A DNA stretch of 64,000 bases from Ralstonia sp. UNC404CL21Col (GTDB lineage Bacteria > Pseudomonadota > Gammaproteobacteria > Burkholderiales > Burkholderiaceae), in contig NZ_KK211140.1 in the NCBI RefSeq assembly GCF_000620465.1, forward strand, positions 62,001 through 126,000, read 5' to 3'. Below the pieces are notes generated by a model. The model was not told the DNA's origin. It was given only the letters and a program-made list of their open reading frames with translations, and did no database searches. Shown here one piece after another: positions 4,391-37,333 of the stretch (the stretch's first letter is position 1; the number at the start of each line of letters is the position of its first letter). The translations under genes and the position numbers were made by a program.

Positions 4391-7300
4391 ATGCGCTCAT
4401 TTGCTCAACGATTTGCGTTTGCCGCGACGGCCACCGCCGCGCTCGCGCTGGCGTGTGTCCAGCCTGCCGGGGCCGAGGATATTGATCTGTACACCGGGCT
4501 GCAACCGCAGGCGGGCAAGCCCAACGTGCTGATCATCATGGACAACGCGTCCACATGGAATGCATCCGCAACGTTCACCTGCGACACCAGCGGCGTCGTG
4601 TCGAGCAACAATGCGAACACCGATGTGGGTGCCGAGCAGTGCGCGCTCTATGACGCGGTGAACGCGTTCAAGAATTCTCCGTCGTTGCTGGGCAACCTGA
4701 ATCTGGGCCTGATGATGTTCGGCTCCGGCAACAACGTCGGCGCGCAGTTCCAGTTTCCGGCAACGCCGCCCGCGCAGTTGCCCCTGATGGACCTCAACGG
4801 GATCAACAGCTTTCTCAACTACGTGTTGACGATCGACCGTCAGGCAAACAACTCGAACAACTCGCAGGTTGGCGGCGGCATGGAGGAGGCATGGGCCTAC
4901 TTCAACAGCGGAACCGGCCCATCCGGAACGTCATACACGTCGGCCAATCCGATCAACAACCCGTGTCAGCGGAATTACGTCATCTACATCGGCAATGCCG
5001 TCAACAACGGCAAACCACAGGACACCGGCAAGAACATCCAGAGCGATCTGGCATCTGCACTGGGCCTTTCTGCCAACACGACGCCGCCGCAGATCGTCAT
5101 ACCGTCGCCCTACAACAAGTACCAGGCCAACTGGGGCGACGAGTGGGCGCAGTTCATGTACCGCTATGACCTGCAGACGAAGACGATCCCCAAGGATCAT
5201 CCGCCGCAGAACATCATCACCTACACGATTTCCGTCACGGACGGAAACAACCCCGACTACGTGGCGTTTGACCAAAGCATGGCCACGAACGGCGGAGGCA
5301 AGGCGTATGTTGCCCAGCTTGGCAAACCGGACCAGCTGAAAGACATCCTGCTGCAGATCTTCAACGAAATTCAGGCTGTGAACAGCGTGTTCGCCTCGGT
5401 CAGCTTGCCGGCCGCCGTGAATGCGCAGGGCCAGTTCCTGAACCAGGTCTATGTCGGCATGTTCCGTCCGGACGCGAGCGCCGCGCCGCGCTGGATGGGG
5501 AACCTCAAGCAATACCAGGTGGGCTACGACGCCAACGGCACCCTGCAATTGCTGGATTCCGTCGGCAAACCGGCGCTCAGCAGCGCAGGCACCGGCTTCA
5601 TTTCGCCCAACGCCGTCAGTTTCTGGTCGGCCGATCCACCGCTGGCTTTTGGCACCAGCGGCTACGGGTCGGGCGTGACCAACTGGCCGAAGAACGGATT
5701 CTGGATCAACAGCCCCTCCGGCGTCGGAGGCGCAAGTGACTCCCCTGACGGCGAGGTGGTCGAGAAGGGCGGCGCCGGTGAAATGCTGCGCGCCCAGTTC
5801 CTGACCGATCAAAGCACCCGTGTGCTCTATACCTGCAACGGCGTCGGCACGTGCCCGACCAGCGGTGCCATGCCGACGTTCGACACGTCGAACACGTGGC
5901 TGACCGGCGGTGCAGGGAAAGGGCTGGACGCGATCAACTCCTACAACAGCGTGAACGGCGCCCCGGCCATCACCTCGAGCGAGCAGAACTACTTCATCAA
6001 CTGGGTGCGCGGCCGCGACGTCTACGCGATGGACGGAAGCACCAAGGCACCGACGGTGGGGCAGGAAGCTGAGACAGGCCCGGGGTCTCCGGTGACGATC
6101 CGCCCGTCGATCCACGGCGACGTGTTGCACTCGCGCCCCGTGGTGATCAACTACGGAACATCGACCGCGCCCAACGTCGTCGTCTATTACGGCACCAATG
6201 ACGGCGTGTTCCATGCCGTCAACGGCAACCAGGCAACCGGCATCAAGACCTCGTCGACGAACATCGTGCGTCCGGGCGGCGAGCTGTGGGGCTTCATCCC
6301 GCCCGAGTTCATCGGCAAGCTGAGCCGGCTCTATGCCAACACGCCGGAGGTTGCGCTCTCCACCACGCCGGGCGGCATCACACCCAAGCCGACACCACGC
6401 GACGACTTCTTCGACGGCAGCACGACCGTCATGCAGGATCAGCGCGTGACCGGCAGCCCGCGCACGGTCATCTACCTGACAGCGCGTCGTGGTGGCAGCC
6501 TTGTGTATGCGCTCGATGTGACCGACCCCGTGAATCCGCGCTACCTCTGGTCGCGAAGCAACACCGACATTCCCGAACTCGGTCAGACGTGGTCCAAGCC
6601 CCGGCTGATGCGCGTGGCGGGCTATACCAATCCCGTGCTGATCATGGGCGCGGGCTACGATGCCGCCTCCGAAGACAGCGACCCGGCACCCGGCACCGAC
6701 ACCGTCGGCCGCGGCATTGTCGTGCTCGATGCGTACAGCGGCGTGCCGGTGTGGAGCGCCTTGGCCAACTGCAGTGGCGTCGCGGGCGTGTGCGTGAAGA
6801 ACACCAGCCTCACGCGCTCGATTGCCTCCGACGTCACCACGGTGGACCGCACGGGCAGCGGCTACATCCAGATGGCCTACGTGGGCGATGTGGGCGGCAA
6901 CATTTGGCGCGTCGATTTCCAGAGCGCTGCCGGCAACACCCCCGCCAACTGGGCACTGACCCAATTCGCGACGCTGGGCGGCGCAGCCAACACCAACAAT
7001 GCGCGCAAGTTCTTCTATGCGCCCGATGTGGTGCCCACGGCCGGCTTCAATGCGATCCTCGCCGGCACCGGCGATCGCGAGCATCCGCTGTATTCGGCGT
7101 CGAACGCGCCCGGTACCGCATACAACGTGGTCAACCGGTTCTACATGCTCAAGGATCCGAACCTCGGGCCGGTGCCCGCCGGCTGGACGCCGCTGACCGA
7201 GGCCAACCTCGTCGACGCGACCTCGGGCGCGTACAACGGCACGGGCTCCGGCTTCTTCATCACGTTGCCGAATGCAGGCGAGAAGGTGGTGAATGCACCG

Positions 7301-7660
7301 CTGACCGTTGCGGGCTATACGACGTTCGGCACCAACACGCCGGCAGTGCCGAAGGCCGGCATGTGCTATCCGAACCTCGGCGTGGCGCGTACCTACTCCG
7401 TCAGCTTCCTCACCGGTGCGGGTCAGAACCCCGACCGGTCCGTCATGCTCGATGGCGGTGGCTTTCCGCCGTCGTCGGTGTATGGCGTGGTGCTCGTCAA
7501 CAACGGCAATGGCGGCACAACGCCGGTGCCGGTGTGCTTTGGCTGTGGCAACCAAACGGGCACGGGTGGTGGATCGTCACTCGCTCCGATCAAGGTCTCC
7601 CCGACGGGCCTCGGCAAACGCAAGCGCACGTTCTGGTTCTCAGAAACCGACAAGCACTGA
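4391..7660 (+). CDS. pilY1: PilY1-type pilus tip adhesin
   Basis: A 1089-residue secreted tip protein of type IV pili. It has a Sec signal peptide (about residues 1-28, ending AGA), an N-terminal von Willebrand A-like domain starting near residue 40 (NVLIIMDNAST, where DNAST replaces the classical DxSxS metal motif), and a C-terminal PilY1 beta-propeller from about residue 560, with the family hallmarks RPSIHGDVLHSRPVVI, YGTNDGVFHAVNG and GDVGGNIWRVDF. The usual calcium loop before that last motif looks eroded: residues 819-827 read DRTGSGYIQ instead of an Asp-rich DxDxDG loop. PilY1 homologues promote adhesion, surface sensing and control of retraction. It is the last gene of the minor pilin operon and is followed by a strong hairpin. 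Confidence 0.9.
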   Translation: MRSFAQRFAFAATATAALALACVQPAGAEDIDLYTGLQPQAGKPNVLIIMDNASTWNASATFTCDTSGVVSSNNANTDVGAEQCALYDAVNAFKNSPSLLGNLNLGLMMFGSGNNVGAQFQFPATPPAQLPLMDLNGINSFLNYVLTIDRQANNSNNSQVGGGMEEAWAYFNSGTGPSGTSYTSANPINNPCQRNYVIYIGNAVNNGKPQDTGKNIQSDLASALGLSANTTPPQIVIPSPYNKYQANWGDEWAQFMYRYDLQTKTIPKDHPPQNIITYTISVTDGNNPDYVAFDQSMATNGGGKAYVAQLGKPDQLKDILLQIFNEIQAVNSVFASVSLPAAVNAQGQFLNQVYVGMFRPDASAAPRWMGNLKQYQVGYDANGTLQLLDSVGKPALSSAGTGFISPNAVSFWSADPPLAFGTSGYGSGVTNWPKNGFWINSPSGVGGASDSPDGEVVEKGGAGEMLRAQFLTDQSTRVLYTCNGVGTCPTSGAMPTFDTSNTWLTGGAGKGLDAINSYNSVNGAPAITSSEQNYFINWVRGRDVYAMDGSTKAPTVGQEAETGPGSPVTIRPSIHGDVLHSRPVVINYGTSTAPNVVVYYGTNDGVFHAVNGNQATGIKTSSTNIVRPGGELWGFIPPEFIGKLSRLYANTPEVALSTTPGGITPKPTPRDDFFDGSTTVMQDQRVTGSPRTVIYLTARRGGSLVYALDVTDPVNPRYLWSRSNTDIPELGQTWSKPRLMRVAGYTNPVLIMGAGYDAASEDSDPAPGTDTVGRGIVVLDAYSGVPVWSALANCSGVAGVCVKNTSLTRSIASDVTTVDRTGSGYIQMAYVGDVGGNIWRVDFQSAAGNTPANWALTQFATLGGAANTNNARKFFYAPDVVPTAGFNAILAGTGDREHPLYSASNAPGTAYNVVNRFYMLKDPNLGPVPAGWTPLTEANLVDATSGAYNGTGSGFFITLPNAGEKVVNAPLTVAGYTTFGTNTPAVPKAGMCYPNLGVARTYSVSFLTGAGQNPDRSVMLDGGGFPPSSVYGVVLVNNGNGGTTPVPVCFGCGNQTGTGGGSSLAPIKVSPTGLGKRKRTFWFSETDKH

Positions 7661-7685
7661 CCCGCATCGCCCCGCATCGCTCCCA

Positions 7686-7710
7686 AACGGCCCGCCCAGC
7701 GCGGGCCGTT
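7686..7710 (+). terminator. Hairpin terminator after pilY1
   Basis: A perfect 10-bp stem (AACGGCCCGC / GCGGGCCGTT) with a five-base loop lies 25 bases after the pilY1 stop. No clean U-tract follows (ACAATT), so it is a moderately convincing intrinsic terminator separating the pil operon from the peroxidase gene. Confidence 0.6.
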
Positions 7711-7767
7711 ACAATTCCGGCCAGATGCCGGAGCATTCCCGTTCCCGCAACCATCCGGAGAGTAGCC

Positions 7768-8265
7768 ATGACTGACGTTTATGCATTCGAGGCCGATTCG
7801 CTGACCGGCCAGCGCGTGCCGCTGTCGCAGTACAAGGGCAAGGTCCTGCTGATCGTGAACACGGCCAGCAAGTGCGGATTCACGCCGCAGTACGCGGGGC
7901 TGGAGGCGGTGTACAAGCGGCTGCACGACAAGGGGCTGGAAGTGCTCGGCTTTCCCTGCAACCAGTTCGGCAAGCAGGAACCGGGCGGCGAAGACGAAAT
8001 CGGCGCGTTCTGCGAGAAGAACTACGGCGTCTCGTTCCCGATGTTCGGCAAGATCGACGTGAATGGCTCAAGCGCGCATCCGCTCTACAAGTGGCTGACC
8101 TCGGAAAAGCCCGGCGTGCTCGGCATCGGAGCCATCAAATGGAACTTCACCAAGTTCCTGCTGCGCCGCGACGGCACGGTGTACAAGCGCTACGCGCCGA
8201 TGACCAAGCCGGAAGAGATTGCCGGCGATATCGAGCGGCTGCTGGCGGAGCCCGATCCCGCCTGA
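7768..8265 (+). CDS. Glutathione peroxidase family protein (Cys type)
   Basis: A 165-residue thiol peroxidase of the glutathione peroxidase (BtuE/GPx) family that reduces hydrogen peroxide and organic hydroperoxides. The catalytic tetrad is visible: Cys36 in NTASKCGFTPQY (Cys in place of selenocysteine), Gln66 in FPCNQFGKQEPG, and Trp-Asn in IKWNFTKFLL. A second cysteine (EIGAFCEKNYG) sits where the resolving Cys of thioredoxin-dependent GPx enzymes lies, so the physiological reductant is more likely thioredoxin than glutathione. There is no signal peptide, so it is cytoplasmic. The ATG at 7768 follows a GGAGAGTAGCC ribosome binding region. It appears to be a single-gene unit, convergent with the WYL regulator. 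Confidence 0.9.
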   Translation: MTDVYAFEADSLTGQRVPLSQYKGKVLLIVNTASKCGFTPQYAGLEAVYKRLHDKGLEVLGFPCNQFGKQEPGGEDEIGAFCEKNYGVSFPMFGKIDVNGSSAHPLYKWLTSEKPGVLGIGAIKWNFTKFLLRRDGTVYKRYAPMTKPEEIAGDIERLLAEPDPA

Positions 8266-8289
8266 CGTTGCGTTCGTCGGTTACGGTTG

Positions 8290-8988
8290 TTAATCCGACG
8301 AGCCCCGCACCTTGCGCATGAAGTCCGCCAGCGAGCGCTCGGCGGATTCGGCAAAGTGGCGCTCCAGAATGTCCACTTTGACGCAGCGGTCGAGGCGGAA
8401 GGTGCGGTAGTCCTGGCGGTGTTCGCACCAGGCGGCCACCAGCCAGACTTGCCCCCAGAAGAACAGACCGAGCGGCTGGATGCAGCGTTCGGTCAACTGG
8501 CCCTGCGCGTCGCGGTAGGACAACCGCGCAACGGCGTGGCGGCCCAGCGCGGCATGCAGCGTATCGAACACCTGCTTGACCTCGCTGCCCATGCCGTAGC
8601 CGGGCGCGAAGATGCGTGTGGTCTCGGCTTCGGCGCGGCGTTCGGCGGGCAGGGCGCCCATCAGCTTTTCCAGTGCGGCTTCCACGGAGTCGGCCATGGT
8701 GCCACCGCTCCACGCCTTGATCATCCGCGCGCCGGCCACCAGCGCTTCGACTTCGTCGGCGGTGAACATGAGCGGCGCGAGGTCGTAGCCGGCACGCATG
8801 CGGTAGCCGATACCGGCTTCGCCTTCGATCGGCACGCCAGAGACAGACAGATCGCGGATATCGCGATACACCGTGCGCTCCGACACGCCGAGGCGGTCGG
8901 CCAGCATCGCCGCCGTGGTCAAACGGCGGCCTCGCAGGATCTGGGCAATCTGGAACAGGCGGTCGGCGCGGCGGGTCATGCGCGGCAT
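8290..8988 (-). CDS. YafY-type transcriptional regulator (HTH_11 + WYL)
   Basis: A 232-residue DeoR-like regulator. An N-terminal winged helix (ADRLFQIAQILRGRRLTTAAMLADRLGVSERTVYRDI) is followed by a WYL-type ligand domain with a C-terminal extension. WYL domains sense small ligands or nucleic acids. The start at 8988 (MPRMTRRAD) is chosen for family length; an alternative Met lies at 8979. It is the last gene of a three-gene minus-strand run (VOC protein, cupin, regulator; gaps of 67 and 43 bases). YafY-family regulators are often encoded beside VOC proteins, so it plausibly controls this small operon. The ligand cannot be read from the sequence. Confidence 0.82.
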   Translation of the reverse strand: MPRMTRRADRLFQIAQILRGRRLTTAAMLADRLGVSERTVYRDIRDLSVSGVPIEGEAGIGYRMRAGYDLAPLMFTADEVEALVAGARMIKAWSGGTMADSVEAALEKLMGALPAERRAEAETTRIFAPGYGMGSEVKQVFDTLHAALGRHAVARLSYRDAQGQLTERCIQPLGLFFWGQVWLVAAWCEHRQDYRTFRLDRCVKVDILERHFAESAERSLADFMRKVRGSSD

Positions 8989-9031
8989 TGTAGTGGGCTT
9001 CTTGCCGCGCGCAATCCGCACAATCTTTCCC

Positions 9032-9511
9032 CTACGCGCCGAAGGGCGTCAGCTCGCGCTGCGGGTGGATGTCGACGATATCCACCTGCTCGCCACGGCG
9101 CAGCATGCGCTTGCCCAGTCGCGGGAAATCGGCAATCTCGATGTTGAGATGTTCGCCGCCGCACAGGTAGACGAGATCTTCCTTGCCGCAGTTGCGCAGG
9201 TGGTGCGCGACGCCTGTGGGGAAGGCCATGAAATCACCGCTACGCACGGTGAAGATGTTGTCGTCGATCTCGGCCTGCGCTTCGCCGGAAAGGATGTAGA
9301 TCCATTCCTCTTCGCGCTGGTGCGAGTGATAGACGAACGACTCCTTGCCCGGCGGCACGCGCGCAAAATTCACGCCGGTGCGCTTGAGCCCGAGCAGCCG
9401 GCCCATCATCGTGCCGTGAATTTCCGACAGGCTGTTCCAGGGGTGCGAAAACGACTGCGTGCGCGCGGTGACATCCGCGGCACGCATGAGATACGGGGAT
9501 TGGCTCGGCAT
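9032..9511 (-). CDS. Cupin domain protein
   Basis: A 159-residue single-domain cupin. The metal-binding motif 1 is clear: YHSHQREEEWIYILSGEAQAE gives the HxH...E pattern, and motif 2 is GDFMAFPTGVAHHL with the last His ligand. The small barrel probably binds one metal ion. Such stand-alone cupins include isomerases, dioxygenases and sugar-binding proteins, and the substrate is not deducible here. The start at 9511 (MPSQSPYLM) is chosen because it gives the normal cupin N-terminus; upstream frame-open sequence overlaps the VOC gene and looks non-coding. It lies between the VOC protein and the WYL regulator on the same strand. Confidence 0.8.
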   Translation of the reverse strand: MPSQSPYLMRAADVTARTQSFSHPWNSLSEIHGTMMGRLLGLKRTGVNFARVPPGKESFVYHSHQREEEWIYILSGEAQAEIDDNIFTVRSGDFMAFPTGVAHHLRNCGKEDLVYLCGGEHLNIEIADFPRLGKRMLRRGEQVDIVDIHPQRELTPFGA

Positions 9512-9578
9512 GGTGTTCTTCTCTGTCTCATGGTGAAGGCCGGCGCCCGCGCACCGGCTTTGGGGAGCGTTACTGCTA

Positions 9579-9974
9579 TTACTGCTGCAGCAGGTACGCC
9601 TGCGTCTTGGCATCCGGCTCGTGCAGGCCGACGCGGTTGCCTTCGGTGTCGACGATGTGGGCGATGCGGCCCATGTGGTCGGGCAGCGTCATGGGGCCGA
9701 ACACGCATTGGCCGCCGCTGCCGTTCACGCGCTCGAGCACGGCATCCAGGTTGGGCGCGTTCAGGTAGACCACACTGCCCTTGTCGGACGGCGCAAAGCC
9801 CTCGCCCTTGACCAGCGCGCCGTGGATGGTCGTCTCGCCCGCCGGAAACACGCCCATGGTCAGGTCGCCCATGTCTTCCTGCTTGAGCTGCGTGTCGAAG
9901 ACGTTCTCGTAAAACTTCACCGCGCGCGGGAAATCGTTGGCGGGGATTTCAAACCAGTTGATGACGCTTGCCAT
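9579..9974 (-). CDS. VOC (glyoxalase/bleomycin resistance) superfamily protein
   Basis: A 131-residue VOC-fold protein. It begins with INWFEIPANDFPRAVKFYENVF, the standard first beta-alpha-beta module, and ends IAHIVDTEGNRVGLHEP, which carries the Glu/His-type ligand of the second module. Family members are usually metal-dependent lyases, dioxygenases or binding proteins. Here the first metal-ligand position is not obviously His, so catalytic activity is uncertain. It is the first gene of a minus-strand run leading to a cupin and a YafY-type regulator, which suggests co-regulation. Confidence 0.8.
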   Translation of the reverse strand: MASVINWFEIPANDFPRAVKFYENVFDTQLKQEDMGDLTMGVFPAGETTIHGALVKGEGFAPSDKGSVVYLNAPNLDAVLERVNGSGGQCVFGPMTLPDHMGRIAHIVDTEGNRVGLHEPDAKTQAYLLQQ

Positions 9975-29132: not shown

Positions 29133-31976
29133 ATGACCGATTCCGCCTTGTCCGCCCAGCCATTTCTGAAAGCCCCGGCCCGCCGGCCTGAGACGCCTGC
29201 GCCTGCGCTGCCCTTTGCGCTGGCGTATTCCCGCTACCTCCAGCGCCAGGCGCAAGCGCGCCAAGGTTGGGCCGAGCGCGTGCAGGCCAGCGCCGACCGT
29301 CCGGTTGACGGCGCGTGGCTGTCGGCGCGCTTTGCCGAACTGTTCGACACGAAGGCCGTGGAGGTCGAGGTCGCGCTCAAGCGGGCGTTGCGCCTGCTGC
29401 GCAATGAAGTGTTCGGCGTACTGGTCGAGCGCGATTTGTCCGGCGCCGCGACGCTCGATGAGGTCACGGGCACGATGACCGACCTGGCCGAGTTTGCCGT
29501 GCGCACAGCCATTTCCGTGATCGGCCAGGAGCTGAGCGCACTGCATGGCCAGCCGATCGGGCAATCCACCGGCGAGGTGCAGGAACTGGTGGTGGTCGGC
29601 ATGGGCAAGCTGGGCGGGCGCGAGTTGAACGTCTCGTCCGACATCGACCTGATCTTTCTCTACGACGACGACGGCGACACCCAGGGTGGCTCGCGACCGC
29701 TCTCCAATCATGAATATTTCACGAAGCTTGGCCGGCGGCTGATCAACGCGCTGGCCGATGTGACGGAGGACGGCTACGTCTTCCGCGTCGACATGCGCCT
29801 GCGCCCAAACGGCGATGCGGGGCCGCTCGCCTGCAGCCTGGGCATGCTGGAGGAGTACTTCGTCGTGCAGGGCCGCGAGTGGGAGCGCTACGCCTGGATC
29901 AAGGGCCGCGTCATCACCGACCCGGCCAGCCCGTATGCCGGCCGCGTGATTCAGCAGTTGGAGCGCGTGACGGGGCCGTTCGTGTTCCGGCGCTATCTGG
30001 ATTACGGCGTGATCTCGGCCATTCGCGCGCTGCATGCGCAGATCCGCAGCGAAGCGGCCAAGCGCAGCAACGGTGCCAACCAGCAGCGCGACGGCGAAGG
30101 CCACCTGCAGGCGCGCTCGCCCAACATCAAGCTCGGGCGCGGCGGCATTCGCGAGATCGAATTCGTGGCGCAGGTGTTTCAGCTGATTCGCGGCGGGCAG
30201 GATTTCGGCCTGCGTGTACGGCCCACGCTGGAGGTGCTTCGGGCGGCGTCCGAGCGCGGCCTGATCGACGCCGAAGCCGTGGCGCGCCTGACCGAGGCTT
30301 ACCGCTTCCTGCGCCAGCTGGAACATCGCCTGCAGTACATCGAAGATGCGCAGACGCACAACCTGCCGGGCTCGCCCGAAGATCAGCTGCGCGTGGCGCG
30401 CATGATGGGCTTTGACGATTACGCGGCGCTCGTCACCAAGCTCGAGGCGTATCAGGACGAAGTCGCCCAGCATTTCGAACAGACCTTCTCCGACAAGCAG
30501 GACAGCCAGCCGCCGTGTGCCGCCGTCTGGCACGCCGACCTGCTCGACGACGAGCACACGGAAACCGCTCGCGCACAACTCGCCGAACTCGGCTATGCAA
30601 ATCCGGAGAGCGTGCTGGAGCGGCTGCGTGCGACGCGCAATTCGCCGCGTTACCGCGCGTTGTCCGAAGTCAGCCGCCAGCGTTTCGACTTGCTGATCAA
30701 CCGCGCGCTGGACCAGGCTTCGCGGCAGACCGATGCCGATGTCACCATCGCGCGCTTTCTCGATTTCTTTGATGCGATCAGCCGGCGCTCGTCGTATCTC
30801 TCGCTGCTGAGCGAATACCCGCAGGCCATGGAGCGCGTGGCCCACACGCTGCATGCATCGCGCTGGGCGGCGGACTACCTCACGCGCCATCCGCAACTGC
30901 TCGATGAGCTGCTCGACGTGGAGGCGCTGTCAGCCGAGCCCGACTGGCCGGCGTTCAGGGCGCGCGTGCGGGAACGCCTGGAGGCCGCGTCCGACCATGT
31001 CGAGATGCAGATGGACATCCTGCGCCAGGAGCACCATGCGGAAACCTTCCGCGTGCTGCTGCAGGACCTGCAGGGCATGCTGAGTGTCGAGCACATCAGC
31101 GACCGGCTTTCTGACCTGGCCGACGCCATGCTGGACCTCACGCTGGAAACGGTCTGGAAGCAGGTCGCCACGCGCCACCGGGAGGTGCCGCGCTTTGCCG
31201 TGGTTGCCTACGGGCGGCTGGGCGGCAAGGAACTCGGCTATGCGTCGGACCTCGACATCATCTTCCTCTACGACGACGATGACGAGCGCGCGCCGGACGT
31301 GTACGCGTCATTCGCGCGCAAGCTCATTACCTGGCTGACCAGCCATACCGCCGCCGGCACGCTGTTCGACGTTGATACGCGCTTGCGGCCGAACGGTGCG
31401 GCAGGTCTGATGGTCACGCACTTCGAGGCCTTCCGCCGCTATCAGATGCGCGAAGGCGACAACGCTGCGTGGGTGTGGGAGCACCAGGCGCTGACGCGGG
31501 CACGCTTCTGCGCGGGCGATGCGGAAATCGGCGAGCGCTTTGAGGCACTGCGTACGGCCGTGTTGCGCCAGCAGCGCGAACGCGGCCCGCTGCGCGACGA
31601 GATCGTGGCGATGCGCGAGCGCGTGGCGGAAGGCCATGCGAATCCGACTGCGCTGTTTGATCTCAAGCACGACCGGGGCGGCATGGTGGATATCGAATTC
31701 ACCGTGCAATTCCTGGTGCTTTTGCATAGCGCCGCGCACGCCGAGCTGACACGCAACAAGGGCAACATCGCACTGTTGCACATGGCCGGCGAGTTGGGCC
31801 TGATCGATGCGACGGCGGCCGCGCAGGTTGCCGATGCCTACCGTGATTTCCGCGCGCGCCAGCACAAGTTGCGGCTCGATGGGCACTCGGCCGCGCGCGT
31901 TCCGGTTGATACCTGCGCGCACGAGGCCGCCCACGTGCGTGCGCTCTGGACGCAGGTGTTCGGGCCCGAGCAATGA
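29133..31976 (+). CDS. glnE: Bifunctional glutamine synthetase adenylyltransferase/deadenylase
   Basis: A 947-residue nitrogen regulator that adds AMP to, or removes AMP from, glutamine synthetase according to PII and glutamine. Both nucleotidyltransferase domains are seen: the first with GMGKLGGRELNVSSDIDLIFLY and the second with AYGRLGGKELGYASDLDIIFLY, each carrying the GxGxxGxxE/DxD pattern, linked by a regulatory domain. The ATG at 29133 (MTDSALSAQPF) is chosen; an in-frame ATG at 29100 would add eleven residues. It overlaps the rhombosortase gene by four bases, so the two are coupled. Confidence 0.95.
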   Translation: MTDSALSAQPFLKAPARRPETPAPALPFALAYSRYLQRQAQARQGWAERVQASADRPVDGAWLSARFAELFDTKAVEVEVALKRALRLLRNEVFGVLVERDLSGAATLDEVTGTMTDLAEFAVRTAISVIGQELSALHGQPIGQSTGEVQELVVVGMGKLGGRELNVSSDIDLIFLYDDDGDTQGGSRPLSNHEYFTKLGRRLINALADVTEDGYVFRVDMRLRPNGDAGPLACSLGMLEEYFVVQGREWERYAWIKGRVITDPASPYAGRVIQQLERVTGPFVFRRYLDYGVISAIRALHAQIRSEAAKRSNGANQQRDGEGHLQARSPNIKLGRGGIREIEFVAQVFQLIRGGQDFGLRVRPTLEVLRAASERGLIDAEAVARLTEAYRFLRQLEHRLQYIEDAQTHNLPGSPEDQLRVARMMGFDDYAALVTKLEAYQDEVAQHFEQTFSDKQDSQPPCAAVWHADLLDDEHTETARAQLAELGYANPESVLERLRATRNSPRYRALSEVSRQRFDLLINRALDQASRQTDADVTIARFLDFFDAISRRSSYLSLLSEYPQAMERVAHTLHASRWAADYLTRHPQLLDELLDVEALSAEPDWPAFRARVRERLEAASDHVEMQMDILRQEHHAETFRVLLQDLQGMLSVEHISDRLSDLADAMLDLTLETVWKQVATRHREVPRFAVVAYGRLGGKELGYASDLDIIFLYDDDDERAPDVYASFARKLITWLTSHTAAGTLFDVDTRLRPNGAAGLMVTHFEAFRRYQMREGDNAAWVWEHQALTRARFCAGDAEIGERFEALRTAVLRQQRERGPLRDEIVAMRERVAEGHANPTALFDLKHDRGGMVDIEFTVQFLVLLHSAAHAELTRNKGNIALLHMAGELGLIDATAAAQVADAYRDFRARQHKLRLDGHSAARVPVDTCAHEAAHVRALWTQVFGPEQ

Positions 31977-32593
31977 CGGCACAGCGGCACACGTTGCACA
32001 CGTGGAGCGCGTGCGTTGGTGTGGCGGCGCTGTCGGCCGCCTTCTCGTTCGTGCCGTGGCTGTACGCGGTCGGTCTGTATCAACGCGACGCTGTGCGCGC
32101 CGGGCAGTGGTGGCGCATCGTGACCGCCATGTGGGTGCATCTGGACACGTGGCATTGGTTGGCCAATGCGATGGCGGCAGCAGGGCTCATCTTGCTGCTC
32201 GCGCGCGTGGTGCGGCCGCAGGTCATTGTTGGAGCGTTGGTGGTGTGCGGGGTGCTCGTCCAGGTGGCGCTGCTCAATCAGCCGGCGGTGCAGTGGTACG
32301 GCGGGCTGTCCGGCGCGCTCCATGGCCTGGCGGCATGGGGCGGGCTGCGGCTGCTGAAGCCGTCTGTGAGCGATGCCGAGGATGGCTTCTCGCGCTGGAC
32401 TGGCGTGGCGCTGTGCGTGGGCGTGCTGGTGAAAGTGTGGCTCGAGCAATCCTGGCTGTCGCCCATCGCCTTTGACCCGCACTGGGGGTTTGGCGTGGTA
32501 CGCATTGCGCATGCCTTTGGCGCGGTGAGCGGATTGCTGATCTGGGTGCTGGGGGAGTGGCGCGCGCAAGGGAGCAGGCAGACGCCACGCTGA
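31973..32593 (+). CDS. rrtA: Rhombosortase (rhomboid-like GlyGly-CTERM protease)
   Basis: A 206-residue inner-membrane serine protease of the rhomboid superfamily, with about six hydrophobic helices. It has the rhombosortase hallmark WYGGLSGALHG, in which Ser113 of GLSG is the nucleophile, and VRIAHAFGAVSGL with His180 as the base; the TM2 HxxxN motif is H61-WLA-N65. Rhombosortases cleave proteins bearing a C-terminal GlyGly-CTERM tail after transport, and can attach a lipid-like group. Exactly such tails are found on the two convergent protease genes just downstream. The start overlaps the glnE stop (ATGA). It is a known family, recognised by motif and context. Confidence 0.92.
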   Translation: MTAQRHTLHTWSACVGVAALSAAFSFVPWLYAVGLYQRDAVRAGQWWRIVTAMWVHLDTWHWLANAMAAAGLILLLARVVRPQVIVGALVVCGVLVQVALLNQPAVQWYGGLSGALHGLAAWGGLRLLKPSVSDAEDGFSRWTGVALCVGVLVKVWLEQSWLSPIAFDPHWGFGVVRIAHAFGAVSGLLIWVLGEWRAQGSRQTPR

Positions 32594-32620
32594 TCGGCAG
32601 AGAAGTCACGTGCCGATGCA

Positions 32621-32659
32621 AAAAACGGACACGCTGGCGGGGCCAGGGTGTCCGTTTTT
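32621..32659. terminator. Bidirectional terminator between rrtA and the subtilase gene
   Basis: Outer stem of 12 bp (AAAAACGGACAC / GTGTCCGTTTTT) plus an inner 4-bp CTGG/CCAG stem, with A-rich and T-rich flanks on both sides. Confidence 0.9.
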
Positions 32660-32687
32660 GCGTTGAAACGATCGCGAGAGTACTCGA

Positions 32688-34742
32688 TCAGCCCTTGCGA
32701 CGGCGGGAGGCCAGTGCACCGCTGATGAATAGCAGGGCCGCCAGTCCCAAGGGGAAAGCGCCACCGCCACCGCTCTGGTTCAGCGAGCCCGTTCCGCTGG
32801 TGCCGCCACTGAAGGGCAGCGTGCCCGTGCCGGTGCCGGTGCCAGGCGTGGTCGTCGGCGGCGCCGTTGCGGTGACGGAAGTCGACGCCGAAGCCGTGCC
32901 GCCCAGATTGTTCGTCACTGTCACCGTGAAGCTGTAGGTGCCGGCGGCGCTGGGCGTGAAGGTGGCGGTGTAGTTCCCGTTGCTGTCCGGTCCTGCGGTA
33001 GTGGGGTTCACACCGGGGCCGGCAGTTTGTGCCCACTGGACGCCACCGCCAGACAGCGTGTTACCAAAACCCGCGCCGACCACGGCTGTAAGCGTGACTG
33101 CGTTATTGGCTACAACCGTGCTGGCCGAACTCGACACGGTGACCGTCGGGGTGCCGACCGACAGCGCGATGGCCGCGCCGGCATCCAGCATGCCGGCTCC
33201 GCAAGCGCCCGGGTTCTGCGCGCAGAACGTACCGGCCGGGAAGGCGCGTGCCGATTGTGTCAGGATCGCCTTGATGTCGTCCACGCTCAGCGTTGGCTTG
33301 TGGGACAGCAACAGGGCCGCAACCCCGGCCACGTGCGGCGTCGCCATCGAGGTGCCCATCTCGGTGGTGTAGTAGCTGGTGCCGGTGTCCGGGGTGGTCA
33401 AGCTGGCGTTGGACAGCGAGACGATCTTGTCGCCGGTGCCTGTGACGACCTGACCCGGGCCGCCGCCCGGTGCGCTGATCGTTGTACCGGTACCGACGTT
33501 GGCGTAGAACGCGTTGTCGCCATCGATCGTGTGGGCTGTCACGGCAATCACGCCGTTGCAGTTGGCTGGTGAGCCAATGAACGGTGCGCCGTCGTTGCCG
33601 GTTGCCACCACGATGGTGGCGCCGCGGTTGCGGGCGGCGGTAATGACCGCCTGTTCCGCCGAGGAGCACGCGCCCGCGCCGCCCAGGCTCATGTTGACCA
33701 CCTGCGCCATCGGCGAATTTGCGGTCAAGGCCGTGCCGCCGGCACCGGGGACGCCGCTGGCGCCAGTGACCCAGGCCAGAGCGTCGAGGATGTCCGATGT
33801 GGTGCCGCCGCATTTGCCCAGTGCGCGAGCCATCTGGATCGTCACGTTGGGCGCAATGCCCGCGATGCCGACCGAGTTGTGCTGCGCGACGATCTGGCCC
33901 GTGACGAAGGTGCCGTGCCAACTACTGTCGCTGTGAGTCCCTGCGGTGCCGCAGTAGCTGGGGTAGTTGGTGGTGTCTTGTGCCGACACCCAGTCACCCG
34001 GATCAGACGGGTTAGTGTCGCGGCCGGCGGGTGTGTCCAGCGGGTCGTTCTCGACAAAGCCCAACGGCACCGTTTTGTTGGTGGCGGGGTCGGGTGTGCC
34101 GTGGTACGCGTCGCTGCTGATGAAGTCGTAACCCGGGCGGATATTCGCGCCCACGAAATCCTCGTGATTGGTCAGCAGGCCTGTGTCGATGACAGCCACA
34201 TTGACCGAGGGCGCGCCCTTGGTGCTATCCCAAGCGGTGGTGATATTGGCGCCACCTGCAGATGGGGTCGGGGGGCCGTTGGCCACCACGGTGCTCGGCC
34301 ACAGGCTCCACTGCTGAGTGAACTTCGGATCGTTCGGCACGGAAGTCGGCCGCATGATGCGATCCGGCGAGACGTACTCGAACTGGCCACTGGCTTCCAT
34401 CCGCTGCGCAACCGTTTGTGCATCGGCCAGCGACATCCCGTTAGGCAGGGTGACCACGTGCGCACCGCCCGACATGGCGCGCTTGTACATCACCGGCAGT
34501 TGTGCGGCGACTGACCAACGTTGCACCGCCGCAACGTCAGCGCGCGCAATGGGGGTTCCCGGCGCAACCGATTGCGTCTTCAGGCTGCTGTTTTTCTCTT
34601 TAACGATGAGCTGCATCACCCATTGCAACTGCGGTGCCGGCGTGGTGGTTTTGCCCACTGCCAGCGCCGGCATTGCGTGATACGACAACAGCCCGAGCGC
34701 CACCAGCGCGCGAGCCACACCCCCTGAGACCCCTGTCTTCAT
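32688..34742 (-). CDS. Subtilisin-like serine protease (S8) with GlyGly-CTERM tail
   Basis: A 684-residue secreted subtilase. Order: signal peptide (residues 1-28), an I9-like propeptide ending EYVSPDRIMRP near residue 131, a catalytic domain with Asp186 (AVIDTG), His276 (SWHGTFVTG) and Ser465 (MGTSMATPHVAG), an Ig/PKD-like domain (about 530-630), a Thr/Gly-rich linker, and a C-terminal GGGGAFPLGLAALLFISGALASRRRKG-type tail, that is, Gly-Gly, a hydrophobic helix and basic residues. The tail is the GlyGly-CTERM sorting signal recognised by rhombosortase, encoded on the other strand nearby. It shares gene organisation with the second subtilase upstream, which points to tandem duplication. Confidence 0.93.
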   Translation of the reverse strand: MKTGVSGGVARALVALGLLSYHAMPALAVGKTTTPAPQLQWVMQLIVKEKNSSLKTQSVAPGTPIARADVAAVQRWSVAAQLPVMYKRAMSGGAHVVTLPNGMSLADAQTVAQRMEASGQFEYVSPDRIMRPTSVPNDPKFTQQWSLWPSTVVANGPPTPSAGGANITTAWDSTKGAPSVNVAVIDTGLLTNHEDFVGANIRPGYDFISSDAYHGTPDPATNKTVPLGFVENDPLDTPAGRDTNPSDPGDWVSAQDTTNYPSYCGTAGTHSDSSWHGTFVTGQIVAQHNSVGIAGIAPNVTIQMARALGKCGGTTSDILDALAWVTGASGVPGAGGTALTANSPMAQVVNMSLGGAGACSSAEQAVITAARNRGATIVVATGNDGAPFIGSPANCNGVIAVTAHTIDGDNAFYANVGTGTTISAPGGGPGQVVTGTGDKIVSLSNASLTTPDTGTSYYTTEMGTSMATPHVAGVAALLLSHKPTLSVDDIKAILTQSARAFPAGTFCAQNPGACGAGMLDAGAAIALSVGTPTVTVSSSASTVVANNAVTLTAVVGAGFGNTLSGGGVQWAQTAGPGVNPTTAGPDSNGNYTATFTPSAAGTYSFTVTVTNNLGGTASASTSVTATAPPTTTPGTGTGTGTLPFSGGTSGTGSLNQSGGGGAFPLGLAALLFISGALASRRRKG

Positions 34743-34922
34743 GCGAATCGCCTCGATTTTTTTGTGAGGATTGCGAAATTTGCCGAGGCATTTTCCTAAA
34801 GGATTTCCATGTCGCGAATGTTCGTTAGGTTTAAGTAGAAACCCTAGTATCGCGAGCCTGGGCTGCTATGGACCGGGCAACGCCCGCTGAAAGGCGACGC
34901 ATGTCTGCGTCGAGCCATAAAA

Positions 34923-34947
34923 AAACCGCCTCGCAGGGAGGCGGTTT
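34923..34947 (-). terminator. Terminator of the second subtilase gene
   Basis: On the minus strand a 10-bp stem (AAACCGCCTC / GAGGCGGTTT) with a five-base loop is followed by seven Ts. It lies 20 bases past the stop of the upstream subtilase, so the two protease genes are separate transcription units. Confidence 0.88.
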
Positions 34948-34966
34948 CGTGCACCGTATGACGGTG

Positions 34967-36616
34967 TCAACGCGAAAGCGGACGTCGTTTGCGGCTGGCT
35001 AGCCCCAGCGCCAACAGCAGCGCAGCCCCAATCAGCGGCACGGCCCCACCACCGCCGCCACCGCCGCTGCTGGTACCGCCGGTCGACCCAGTGGAGCCGC
35101 TCGACCCCGAGGTGCCGCTGCCCGCGCCTGCCGGCGCCGTGTTCTGCGCATAGCTGACGGCACCGGCGGCGTCCAGCAGGCCCGCGCCGCAGACGCCTGT
35201 GTTCACAGCGCAAAACGTGCCGCCCGGATGCGGTCGCGCAGTCTGCTTCAGCCCTGCGAGCACCTGCACGTTCGACAACTGTGGCTGCACGCTCAACATC
35301 AGCGCGATGGTGCCGGCTGTTTCTGGCGTCGAGAAACTTGTACCTGCGACCGACTTGACCGTGGGGTTGCCGACACTCTGCGTACCGTCGTTGGAGTCGG
35401 CCTGGATGACCGACGTTGTGCCCGAGCAGCCGGCGCTGGTGGCCTGCGAGTTGCCGCAGCCACCGCCGGGCGCGGACAGCGCGACCTGCGGCCCCACGTT
35501 CGCGTAGCTGGCGTTCTCGCCGCTGTCGACGTGCGCGGTGACGGCGATCGCACCCGTGCAATTGGCCGGTGCGTCAACGGTTTGCGCGGCCTCATTGCCG
35601 GCGGCGGCCACCACGATGGCGCCGCGTGCGGCCAACTGGTTCACCGCGTCCTGTTCTGCTGCAGAGCACTGCGTGGTGCTGCCCAGGCTCACGTTCACCA
35701 CCCGCGCCGGGTTGGCGTTGGCCGGCACGCCAGACACGTTGATGCCGCCCGCCCACAGCATGCCGTCCACGGTGTCCGACAGCAGCGCGCCGCACTTGCC
35801 CGACACGCGGACCGGCACGATCGGCGTGTTCCAGCCCACCCCTGCGATATCGAGCACATTGTTGGTCTGCGCGGCGAGCACGCTGCTGACCTCGGTGCCG
35901 TGCCAGCTGCTGTTGCCGACGTCGTTGCTGGTGCAGCCCGGAATGTTCTGCCATTGCGTGCTGGTCACGCCGTCGCCAAGGTCATGCGCATCCGTTCCCC
36001 GGCCGAATGAGTTGCCCGCGCGCGCCGGGTCCGAAATGAAGTTGTAGCCCGGCAGGATCTTGCTCGACAGATCGGGGTGATCCGTGTAGCCGGTATCGAC
36101 CACCGCCACCACGATGCTCGTCGAGCCCTGCGTGATGTTCCAAGCCGCAGCCGCGTTGATGCCGCCCGGCACCAGCGCCGGCGCGGCCAGATTGTTTTGC
36201 GTAGCGAACAGCGGGTCGTTCGGAACGGTGTTGGGCCGCAGGATGCGGTCCGGCACCACGTAGGCCACGCGGGCGTCCTGCGCGATCTTGTTGACGGTGG
36301 CCTGGATGCTGGCGGCATCGGTCAGGCCGGTGTGCATGAGTTGCGCGTTCGTCGCCAGCGTGCGCTTGACCTGCAGCGTGCTGCCCGCCGCTTGCGCCAC
36401 CGACAGCAAGCGGTTGCTTGCCTCGCTGGCCGAGAGCGTCTTGCGCGTGCCACTCGTGTCGTCGCGCCATTTGATGATCAGGTCACCGGTGTACTGCGGT
36501 TGCGGCGTGGCTGCTGCGGCCGCTGTGGCGACTTGGCCGCCCACCATCCAGGCAAGACAGGCAAGGCTGGCGCCTGCGCGGCGCCAAGACTTCAACCGGA
36601 AGAGGGAGGGGGTCAT
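34967..36616 (-). CDS. Subtilisin-like serine protease (S8) with GlyGly-CTERM tail, second copy
   Basis: A 549-residue secreted subtilase. It has a signal peptide (about residues 1-35), a propeptide (TGDLIIKW near residue 43 through YVVPDRILRP near 127), and the catalytic triad Asp174 (VVDTGYTDHPDL), His239 (SSWHGTEVSS) and Ser427 (AGTSFSTPETAG), with the oxyanion Asn341 in AAGNEAA. A Ser/Gly/Thr linker leads to the C-terminal tail GGGGAVPLIGAALLL followed by a basic end (SRKRRPLSR), a GlyGly-CTERM signal. It is shorter than the neighbouring copy because it lacks the Ig-like domain. Its propeptide is strikingly similar to the lipoprotein encoded just upstream. Confidence 0.93.
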   Translation of the reverse strand: MTPSLFRLKSWRRAGASLACLAWMVGGQVATAAAAATPQPQYTGDLIIKWRDDTSGTRKTLSASEASNRLLSVAQAAGSTLQVKRTLATNAQLMHTGLTDAASIQATVNKIAQDARVAYVVPDRILRPNTVPNDPLFATQNNLAAPALVPGGINAAAAWNITQGSTSIVVAVVDTGYTDHPDLSSKILPGYNFISDPARAGNSFGRGTDAHDLGDGVTSTQWQNIPGCTSNDVGNSSWHGTEVSSVLAAQTNNVLDIAGVGWNTPIVPVRVSGKCGALLSDTVDGMLWAGGINVSGVPANANPARVVNVSLGSTTQCSAAEQDAVNQLAARGAIVVAAAGNEAAQTVDAPANCTGAIAVTAHVDSGENASYANVGPQVALSAPGGGCGNSQATSAGCSGTTSVIQADSNDGTQSVGNPTVKSVAGTSFSTPETAGTIALMLSVQPQLSNVQVLAGLKQTARPHPGGTFCAVNTGVCGAGLLDAAGAVSYAQNTAPAGAGSGTSGSSGSTGSTGGTSSGGGGGGGAVPLIGAALLLALGLASRKRRPLSR

Positions 36617-36877
36617 CAGCGCGGGCTCCGTGGTGTCTCGTTGTGATGAGAAACGTCGTCAGGATGTGATCGTTGACAGACCGTTACACAAAAACAAAGG
36701 TAGCACGCGACTCGTCCGCTTGGTGTGGTGGCGAATGGCGATGACGTTTGCGCGGGGAATGGGCCTGCCAATGCGCCGCCATCGCAGCAGAATACGGACC
36801 CGGCTGCGACGAAGAACCGGAAATCGGACGCCGCGTGGCACCCGATGATTCACAGTGTGGAGCGGTGTTGCGGTGGC

Positions 36878-37333
36878 TCAGCGTTGGATCTTCACGACGC
36901 GATCCGGATCGGCTGAAGCAACGCCTGGCGTGTTGCGCAACGCGGTTACCGCGCCGTCCACCGTGGCCGATGCATCGCCCGAGGTGGCGCGCACCAACCA
37001 GAATCCGCCCGACATCGGGCGTACTACCGCAAAGGCCAGTCGCGGTGTTGCGCGCGCGCCCGCGGCATCCAACAGGCCTTGCACGGTGGCCGATGACGTG
37101 GTCGGCGTGCTCAGCCCGATGATGACATCGCCCACGCTGTGTGCGGCGGACACCGAAGCCGGCGGCTGGGTGTTAGTCGATGCCGGGTCCATGGCAGGCG
37201 GCTTGCCGGGATCAATCGCCGGCACGGACTTGCATGCGGCCAGCAGGCACAACCCAAGAGCCACCGCCAGCGCAGATTTGGCAGACGACAACAGCGATCG
37301 AGGGCGGGCGGCCGATTGGATCATGCGGGCCAT
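36878..37333 (-). CDS. Lipoprotein resembling the subtilase propeptide (I9-like); putative inhibitor
   Basis: A 151-residue exported lipoprotein of no recognised family. The signal peptide ends with a lipobox (LLAAC, Cys34); residues 35-60 are a Pro/Ser/Thr linker. Residues 67-151 align by eye with the propeptide of the subtilase encoded downstream: VGDVIIGL versus TGDLIIKW, VQGLLDAAGA versus NRLLSVAQAAG, ATVDGAVTALRNTPGVASADPDRV versus the equivalent helix ending VAYVVPDRI. Subtilase propeptides fold the enzyme and inhibit it, so a separate copy tethered to a membrane may restrain or chaperone the protease. The start at 37333 has AAGGAG eight bases upstream. It precedes the second subtilase on the same strand with a 261-base gap. 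Similarity is judged by eye, not by a search. Confidence 0.72.
   Translation of the reverse strand: MARMIQSAARPRSLLSSAKSALAVALGLCLLAACKSVPAIDPGKPPAMDPASTNTQPPASVSAAHSVGDVIIGLSTPTTSSATVQGLLDAAGARATPRLAFAVVRPMSGGFWLVRATSGDASATVDGAVTALRNTPGVASADPDRVVKIQR

Follow-up and report, generated by a model that had tools for sequence, protein, structure and literature searches.

A propeptide-like lipoprotein encoded beside a rhombosortase and sorting-tail subtilases in Ralstonia: a candidate membrane-tethered subtilase inhibitor

The window analysed here (a 64-kb stretch of contig NZ_KK211140.1 from the 5.09 Mb genome of Ralstonia sp. UNC404CL21Col) contains neighbouring genes that encode a rhombosortase, two subtilases (S8a and S8b) and a lipoprotein with similarity to subtilase propeptides. 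The plus strand carries glnE and then the rhombosortase gene rrtA (31973..32593, 206 amino acids), the ATG of which overlaps the glnE stop codon by 4 bases. The minus strand encodes, in order, RecN, the 151-residue lipoprotein (36878..37333, after a gap of 93 bases), S8b (34967..36616, gap of 261 bases) and S8a (32688..34742, gap of 224 bases); the coordinates and gene order given in an earlier note on this DNA proved correct when rechecked on the window. Promoter and terminator scanning of the locus returned signals no better than those obtained from shuffles. Just 3′ of S8b, at 34918-34948, the minus strand has a GC-rich inverted repeat and then a T run, an arrangement that looks terminator-like by eye and is absent from the scan list.

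The lipoprotein gene has AAGGAG upstream of its ATG, and its product is predicted to be a bacterial lipoprotein from its signal peptide and the cysteine of the lipobox LAAC, located at Cys34 as the earlier note had stated (codon at 37232..37234, minus strand). The remainder consists of a linker and one domain (residues 66-151; 36881..37138, minus strand). Profile-profile comparison of this domain with subtilase propeptides using hhalign gave a score of 67.7 (E 1.3e-11), the best of 150 column shuffles scoring 21.7; this identifies residues 66-151 as a homologue of subtilase propeptides. The resemblance previously proposed for residues 67-151 is hence real, but it emerges only from profiles. 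When the lipoprotein was aligned with S8b and with S8a by pairwise BLASTP, no propeptide match was significant (the one piece within the S8a propeptide had E 1.2), and the lipoprotein alone scores 13.9 bits against the Pfam model PF22148 (Fervidolysin_NPro-like), under the curated cut-off of 21; the best of the single lipoproteins for which scores were inspected (L095) reaches 20.4 bits. Profile searches against solved structures gave nothing significant with alignment A1 (4 chance matches at E ≤10), no match at E ≤0.01 with alignment A3 and a non-significant best E of 0.046 with alignment A6, for which five of the nine matches at E ≤1 were S8 propeptides or zymogens. A second match in the window's own genome (L002, E 0.0186) had no profile match at E ≤1 and was dropped.

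The AlphaFold2 model of the lipoprotein shows propeptide topology, with predicted local distance difference test (pLDDT) scores of 92-95 across the core residues 71-140. When residues 67-151 of the model were compared with known structures by VIA-align, the prosubtilisin propeptide chain 3cnq_P, aligned over its residues 9-75, stood at the top of the list, level with other ferredoxin-like folds. The subtilisin propeptide ends 6 residues past an Asp that corresponds to a conserved Asp in the lipoproteins. The window protein ends 7 residues past this position, and seven copies from genomes of the same class but outside the family end 5-7 residues past it (the residue is Gly in L096). In alignment A1, 12 other Ralstonia-type rows (from L030-L040, L055 and L056) share the end column of the window protein, as does a thirteenth. 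The Ralstonia and the seven outside-family lipoproteins are therefore predicted to end at about the propeptide cut point, and a propeptide domain that ends there would occupy the groove of the active site much as a cleavage product does.

The product of rrtA matches the rhombosortase model TIGR03902 with 144.3 bits (cut-off 84), bearing out its earlier identification, and also matches Pfam Rhomboid (E 9.1e-08). Both subtilases match Peptidase_S8 in Pfam (E 4.8e-43 for S8a and 2e-38 for S8b), and by eye each comprises a signal region, a propeptide, a subtilase domain and a tail with Gly-rich, hydrophobic and basic parts. The S8b tail (residues 521-545; 34982..35056, minus strand) narrowly passes the GlyGly-CTERM-type model TIGR03867 (20.2 bits against a cut-off of 19.7), whereas that of S8a (residues 658-682; 32697..32771, minus strand) falls 0.9 bit short at 18.8 bits. 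The suggestion that both enzymes are GlyGly-CTERM proteins is accordingly upheld by the model for S8b, but for S8a only by visual recognition of the same three tail parts. Residues D174, H239, S427 and N341 of S8b, which we take to have the catalytic roles usual in subtilases, are invariant across 20 aligned sequences. The propeptide of S8b itself spans residues ~42-128 (36233..36493, minus strand) in alignment A3; the structure model of this enzyme is poor (mean pLDDT 51.5) and shows the beta-alpha-beta-beta-alpha-beta order in the propeptide at low confidence. The general GlyGly-CTERM model TIGR03501, named in PMC3237569, is not among the tail-model matches of the window proteins. Elsewhere in the genome there is a type II secretion system (T2SS) secretin (638 bits), and the model NF033192 for MrtJ, another sorting enzyme, finds no match in this genome. 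In Vibrio cholerae, according to Gadwal 2018 (PMC6219818), rhombosortase exposes a glycine, which then bears a glycerophosphoethanolamine-containing moiety, and the T2SS delivers the substrate VesB to the cell surface.

The genomes that we surveyed are samples from larger groups, and the number of scored candidates taken from each genome was capped. Within the family, 28 of 150 genomes encode the lipoprotein (14 of genus g1, 13 of g3, which we assume to be Cupriavidus on the basis of its genes and genome size, and one of g5), and the same 28 possess a rhombosortase over the cut-off; this count is restricted to matches over the cut-off, as at E ≤0.001 47 of the 150 genomes match, as do all 14 of 14 control genomes. 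The 27 loci compared (13 of Ralstonia type and 14 of g3 and g5) show, as far as each extends, the recurring order GlnE-RrtA-(S8a)-S8b-lipoprotein-RecN-NadK-HrcA. RrtA is visible in 24 of them, the remaining three ending before its position. S8a varies in copy number, being found in 12 of the 13 Ralstonia loci (0-2 copies, with a tandem double copy after S8b in L036, L037, L038 and L056, and none in L039) and in none of the 14 g3 and g5 loci. Since the lipoprotein adjoins S8b in 27 of 27 loci while S8a comes and goes, S8b is the stable partner. The earlier note had associated the lipoprotein with both proteases; its co-occurrence with putatively anchored subtilases extends far beyond the window's genome, but S8a is not a constant part of it. 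In one locus (L047 in G131; 7606-9342, plus strand) the S8b frame is broken by one in-frame stop, and the lipoprotein and RrtA frames are intact.

A relaxed lipobox pattern is present in the lipoproteins of all 27 loci, and the +2 residue, Lys in the window protein, is Asp in none of 28 sequences (K in 14, Q in 6, A in 5 and S in 3). In Escherichia coli, lipoproteins that lack Asp at +2 are sorted to the outer membrane, and by this rule the protein is probably located there. Purifying selection acts on the lipoprotein gene within Ralstonia, with a median ratio of non-synonymous to synonymous substitution rates (dN/dS) of 0.091 for the mature protein (12 sequences, 66 pairs); the corresponding median for the S8b propeptide is 0.131 (11 sequences). 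In phylogenetic analysis the family lipoproteins form a single supported set (9 rows, 99/99) that is separate from the S8b propeptides (10 rows, 92/92, not starred), which suggests that the two diverged before the three genera did. A common origin of all lipoproteins, within and outside the family, is neither shown nor rejected (p-AU 0.33, with weak deep branches). A domain that is homologous to a propeptide and adjoins subtilase genes might be a drifting relic, namely a functionless piece of propeptide that survives from a duplicated subtilase gene, but we regard this as very improbable in view of the purifying selection, the lipobox retained in every locus, the well-supported position of the family lipoproteins apart from the S8b propeptides and, as described below, recurrence in several families.

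When the profiles were run over 369 genomes of the class, 55 matched at E ≤0.05. Rows with an open frame of at most 310 amino acids were examined, whereas larger frames, not all of which were read, were assumed to be S8 propeptides, so that the following count is a lower bound. At least eight of the 369 genomes, representing seven genera and six families, encode the short lipoprotein (the window's own, G175, G183, G234, G321, G358, G363 and G454), and in all eight it adjoins an S8 gene. Outside the family the S8 partners carry a propeptide-like N-terminus of their own, detected by profile in six of seven genomes and only by eye in G175. In the family loci, as also in G175, G234, G321 and G358, the S8 gene has the lipoprotein gene on its upstream side. 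A rhombosortase over the cut-off is encoded in the same stretch in G358 (135.1 bits), G234 (128.1 bits) and G183 (159.3 bits). In G321 and G175 the S8 gene is followed by MrtJ (127.1 and 111.9 bits against NF033192, cut-off 75), giving a three-gene set of lipoprotein, S8 and MrtJ (L095 in G321, ~5614-8050, minus strand; L097 in G175, ~7390-9790, plus strand). The G321 subtilase passes the JDVT-CTERM model (35.4 bits, cut-off 27); the G175 tail is similar by eye, but the model gives no listing for it. In G363 an over-cut-off rhombosortase lies on another contig, as it does in G454, where the adjacent gene encodes a GlpG-like rhomboid that does not reach the rhombosortase cut-off. The module of rhombosortase and lipoprotein proposed in the earlier note is thus encountered both inside and outside the family, but the lipoprotein is not tied to rhombosortase, given the presence of MrtJ at two loci.

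A phylum sample of 398 genomes, which overlaps the other samples, added three genomes of one further genus (G633, G530 and G536). In G633 the lipoprotein adjoins an S8 gene that is truncated where the contig ends. Rhombosortase-like matches in these three genomes (70.6-81.8 bits, two of them in tandem in G536) are below the cut-off and on other contigs. Several copies outside the family (L095, L096 and L129) have unusual lipoboxes. Concerning the stretches from which these counts derive, all four in the first class-sample set contain lipoproteins (L094-L097), as do three of the 12 in the second (L128-L130), where L131 is a piece of an S8 gene; L132, L133, L135, L136, L138 and L139 were unrelated on inspection and nothing was seen in L134 and L137. 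The six phylum-sample stretches yielded three lipoproteins (L145-L147) and two chance matches (L148 and L150). The sixth, L149 (in G720; 4902-6811, minus strand), encodes a zf-HC2 anti-sigma-factor-like protein directly upstream of an S8 gene, and its C-terminal part passes the prodomain model PF22148 (24.7 bits, cut-off 21). Propeptide domains can therefore be displayed near S8 genes on other anchors, and the lipoprotein domain might analogously serve as a substrate-like bait which, when cut by the subtilase, would report on protease activity in the envelope or buffer it. We think such a sensor or decoy function improbable, as the lipoprotein has no visible signalling part beyond its signal peptide, linker and single domain. 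Finally, a search of plasmids by tblastn gave no match at E ≤1e-3.

The subtilases adjacent to the lipoprotein were also compared with 20 of the best-scoring class-sample S8 loci that lack it, a non-random control in which 19 S8 open reading frames could be scored (none in L153). By rule, an anchored tail is present in 5 of 18 controls with a complete C-terminus, 6 of 8 lipoprotein-adjacent S8 frames outside the family and 41 of 42 in the family loci. This apparent enrichment is suggestive only, because the controls are non-random and the rule misses L095, which passes JDVT-CTERM, as well as L094 and the control L155, both of which look anchored by eye.

With a probability that we put at roughly 0.55, the lipoprotein is a lipid-anchored second copy of a propeptide that acts in trans on surface-anchored S8b as a product-like inhibitor, and the propeptide-inhibitor interpretation of the earlier note is in this respect partly supported. 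S8 enzymes cut their own propeptide upon folding. S8b would be exported with its own propeptide, which would aid folding and then be cut off by S8b itself; rhombosortase would remove the C-terminal tail, leaving S8b attached to lipid, and the T2SS would deliver the anchored enzyme to the surface. The lipoprotein would probably reside in the outer membrane and hold its propeptide-fold domain on a linker of ~30 residues. As its C-terminus already ends near the cut point, the domain could occupy the S8b active site uncut, in the manner of a product-like inhibitor. Anchored inhibitor and anchored enzyme would then share the same membrane zone, so that S8b that is activated early, or that lies beside the cell's own surface proteins, would be restrained. 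An S8 enzyme that removes its own propeptide on folding could become active inside the envelope, earlier than VesB does.

A number of observations weigh against this reading. VesB, which is a Vibrio enzyme and not an S8 protease, is thought to become active only once at the surface (PMC6219818), which weakens the argument from early activation. When the comparison is restricted to Ralstonia lipoproteins and Ralstonia S8b propeptides, the hhalign score drops to 17.9, below the best shuffle of the full comparison, and the domain has therefore drifted from its present neighbour. Three of the five AlphaFold2 models of the lipoprotein are poor (44.8, 44.4 and 38.8, compared with 71.5), and residues 144-150 are modelled as a helix at falling confidence, with no extended tail. 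The structural likeness to propeptide folds that had been anticipated is only partly obtained: the topology is consistent and a prodomain heads the VIA-align list, but that match ties with unrelated ferredoxin-like folds, and Foldseek gave no match to the lipoprotein model at E ≤0.001. In g3 and g5 the lipoproteins continue beyond the conserved Asp (for 18 and 19 residues in the two copies that were counted), and two g369 lipoproteins likewise continue for 14 and 17 residues; such tails would need trimming or another mode of binding. The gene order is variable: G363 and G454 have the lipoprotein gene downstream of S8, and in G183 it has an S8 gene on either side. Two orphan lipoproteins (L145 in G536, 6375-6824; L147 in G530, 6327-6842, plus strand) have no S8 gene within ~6-7 kb. 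Rhombosortases over the cut-off occur in 126 of the 369 class genomes, and the lipoprotein was found in just seven of these 126, which include seven of the eight lipoprotein genomes; the lipoprotein is hence no general companion of rhombosortase and accompanies particular subtilases. Lastly, every S8 partner examined has its own propeptide, and a second one is in principle unneeded.

The nearest alternative to inhibition is a foldase that uses the same contact, and both functions could coexist. The lipoprotein would in that case mainly help the anchored subtilase to fold, or keep it export-ready in the periplasm, and inhibition would be a by-product. Membrane-bound lipase foldases provide a parallel, and propeptides act as both folding catalysts and inhibitors. 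Aeromonas sobria ORF2 is described as a separately encoded, external chaperone of the subtilase ASP that also inhibits this enzyme, with the C-terminus of ORF2 located at the active site (PMC5638518); it is the nearest functional parallel known to us. Acinetobacter T2SS effectors are reported to use membrane-associated chaperones (PMC4713064). ORF2 serves a propeptide-deficient subtilase, however, whereas the S8 clients examined here keep their own propeptide. Outer-membrane sorting, for which the absence of Asp at +2 argues, would in addition place the lipoprotein away from the inner-membrane site of folding. On balance a primarily foldase or chaperone role seems rather unlikely to us.

Stand-alone inhibitors of MEROPS family I9 (yeast Pbi2/IB2, Pleurotus POIA1 and plant SPI-1) are propeptide-fold proteins that act in trans via a product-like C-terminus, as is proposed for the lipoprotein. 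To our knowledge these are neither lipoproteins nor genetically linked to one protease, whereas the gene described here encodes a predicted bacterial lipoprotein and is linked to that of a single, probably anchored subtilase. Rhombosortase genes with a neighbouring GlyGly-CTERM target are well documented, Ralstonia and Cupriavidus being listed in a 2011 table of genomes with one target (Haft 2011, PMC3237569); that paper also records a rhombosortase and target for Cupriavidus necator H16, under the name Ralstonia eutropha H16. The window resembles that arrangement in placing rhombosortase beside its target; its third gene lies outside that picture, the words lipoprotein, propeptide and subtilisin each having 0 occurrences in the main text of the 2011 paper (PMC3237569). 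In the case of MrtJ and JDVT-CTERM, PMC11980579 cites Haft 2024 for a neighbourhood of two genes; G321 and G175 resemble it in having an over-cut-off MrtJ right after the S8 gene, but differ in that three genes are present, with the lipoprotein directly before S8. No such lipoprotein partner appears in the available text of a 2026 paper on GlyGly-CTERM (PMC13393428), and we found no account of one among the open-licence papers listed in our searches, although an earlier mention elsewhere is possible. The sorting enzymes and tails are already known; the lipoprotein partner is so far apparently undescribed.

The inhibitor model bears on the question of how Gram-negative bacteria can live with an aggressive protease attached to their own envelope. 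The recurrence of the pairing in distantly related bacteria suggests a dedicated brake or folding helper for surface proteases. Because the three-part kit of anchored protease, anchored brake and tail-processing enzyme would have arisen with two or more unrelated sorting enzymes, one a rhomboid serine protease (rhombosortase) and another a member of the CPBP family (MrtJ), the brake might go with anchoring as such and not with one sorting pathway; bacteria with an envelope-fixed subtilase might then generally retain an uncleavable copy of its propeptide on a lipid anchor as a dedicated brake, a generalisation that we put forward tentatively, at slightly less than even odds. The published rhombosortase and MrtJ modules are described as comprising a sorting enzyme and its target, and if the inhibitor model is true the lipoprotein would be a regulator so far missing for such anchored proteases and a bacterial counterpart of the stand-alone eukaryotic I9 inhibitors. 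It would also provide a handle for the safe production of surface-displayed proteases in laboratory strains.

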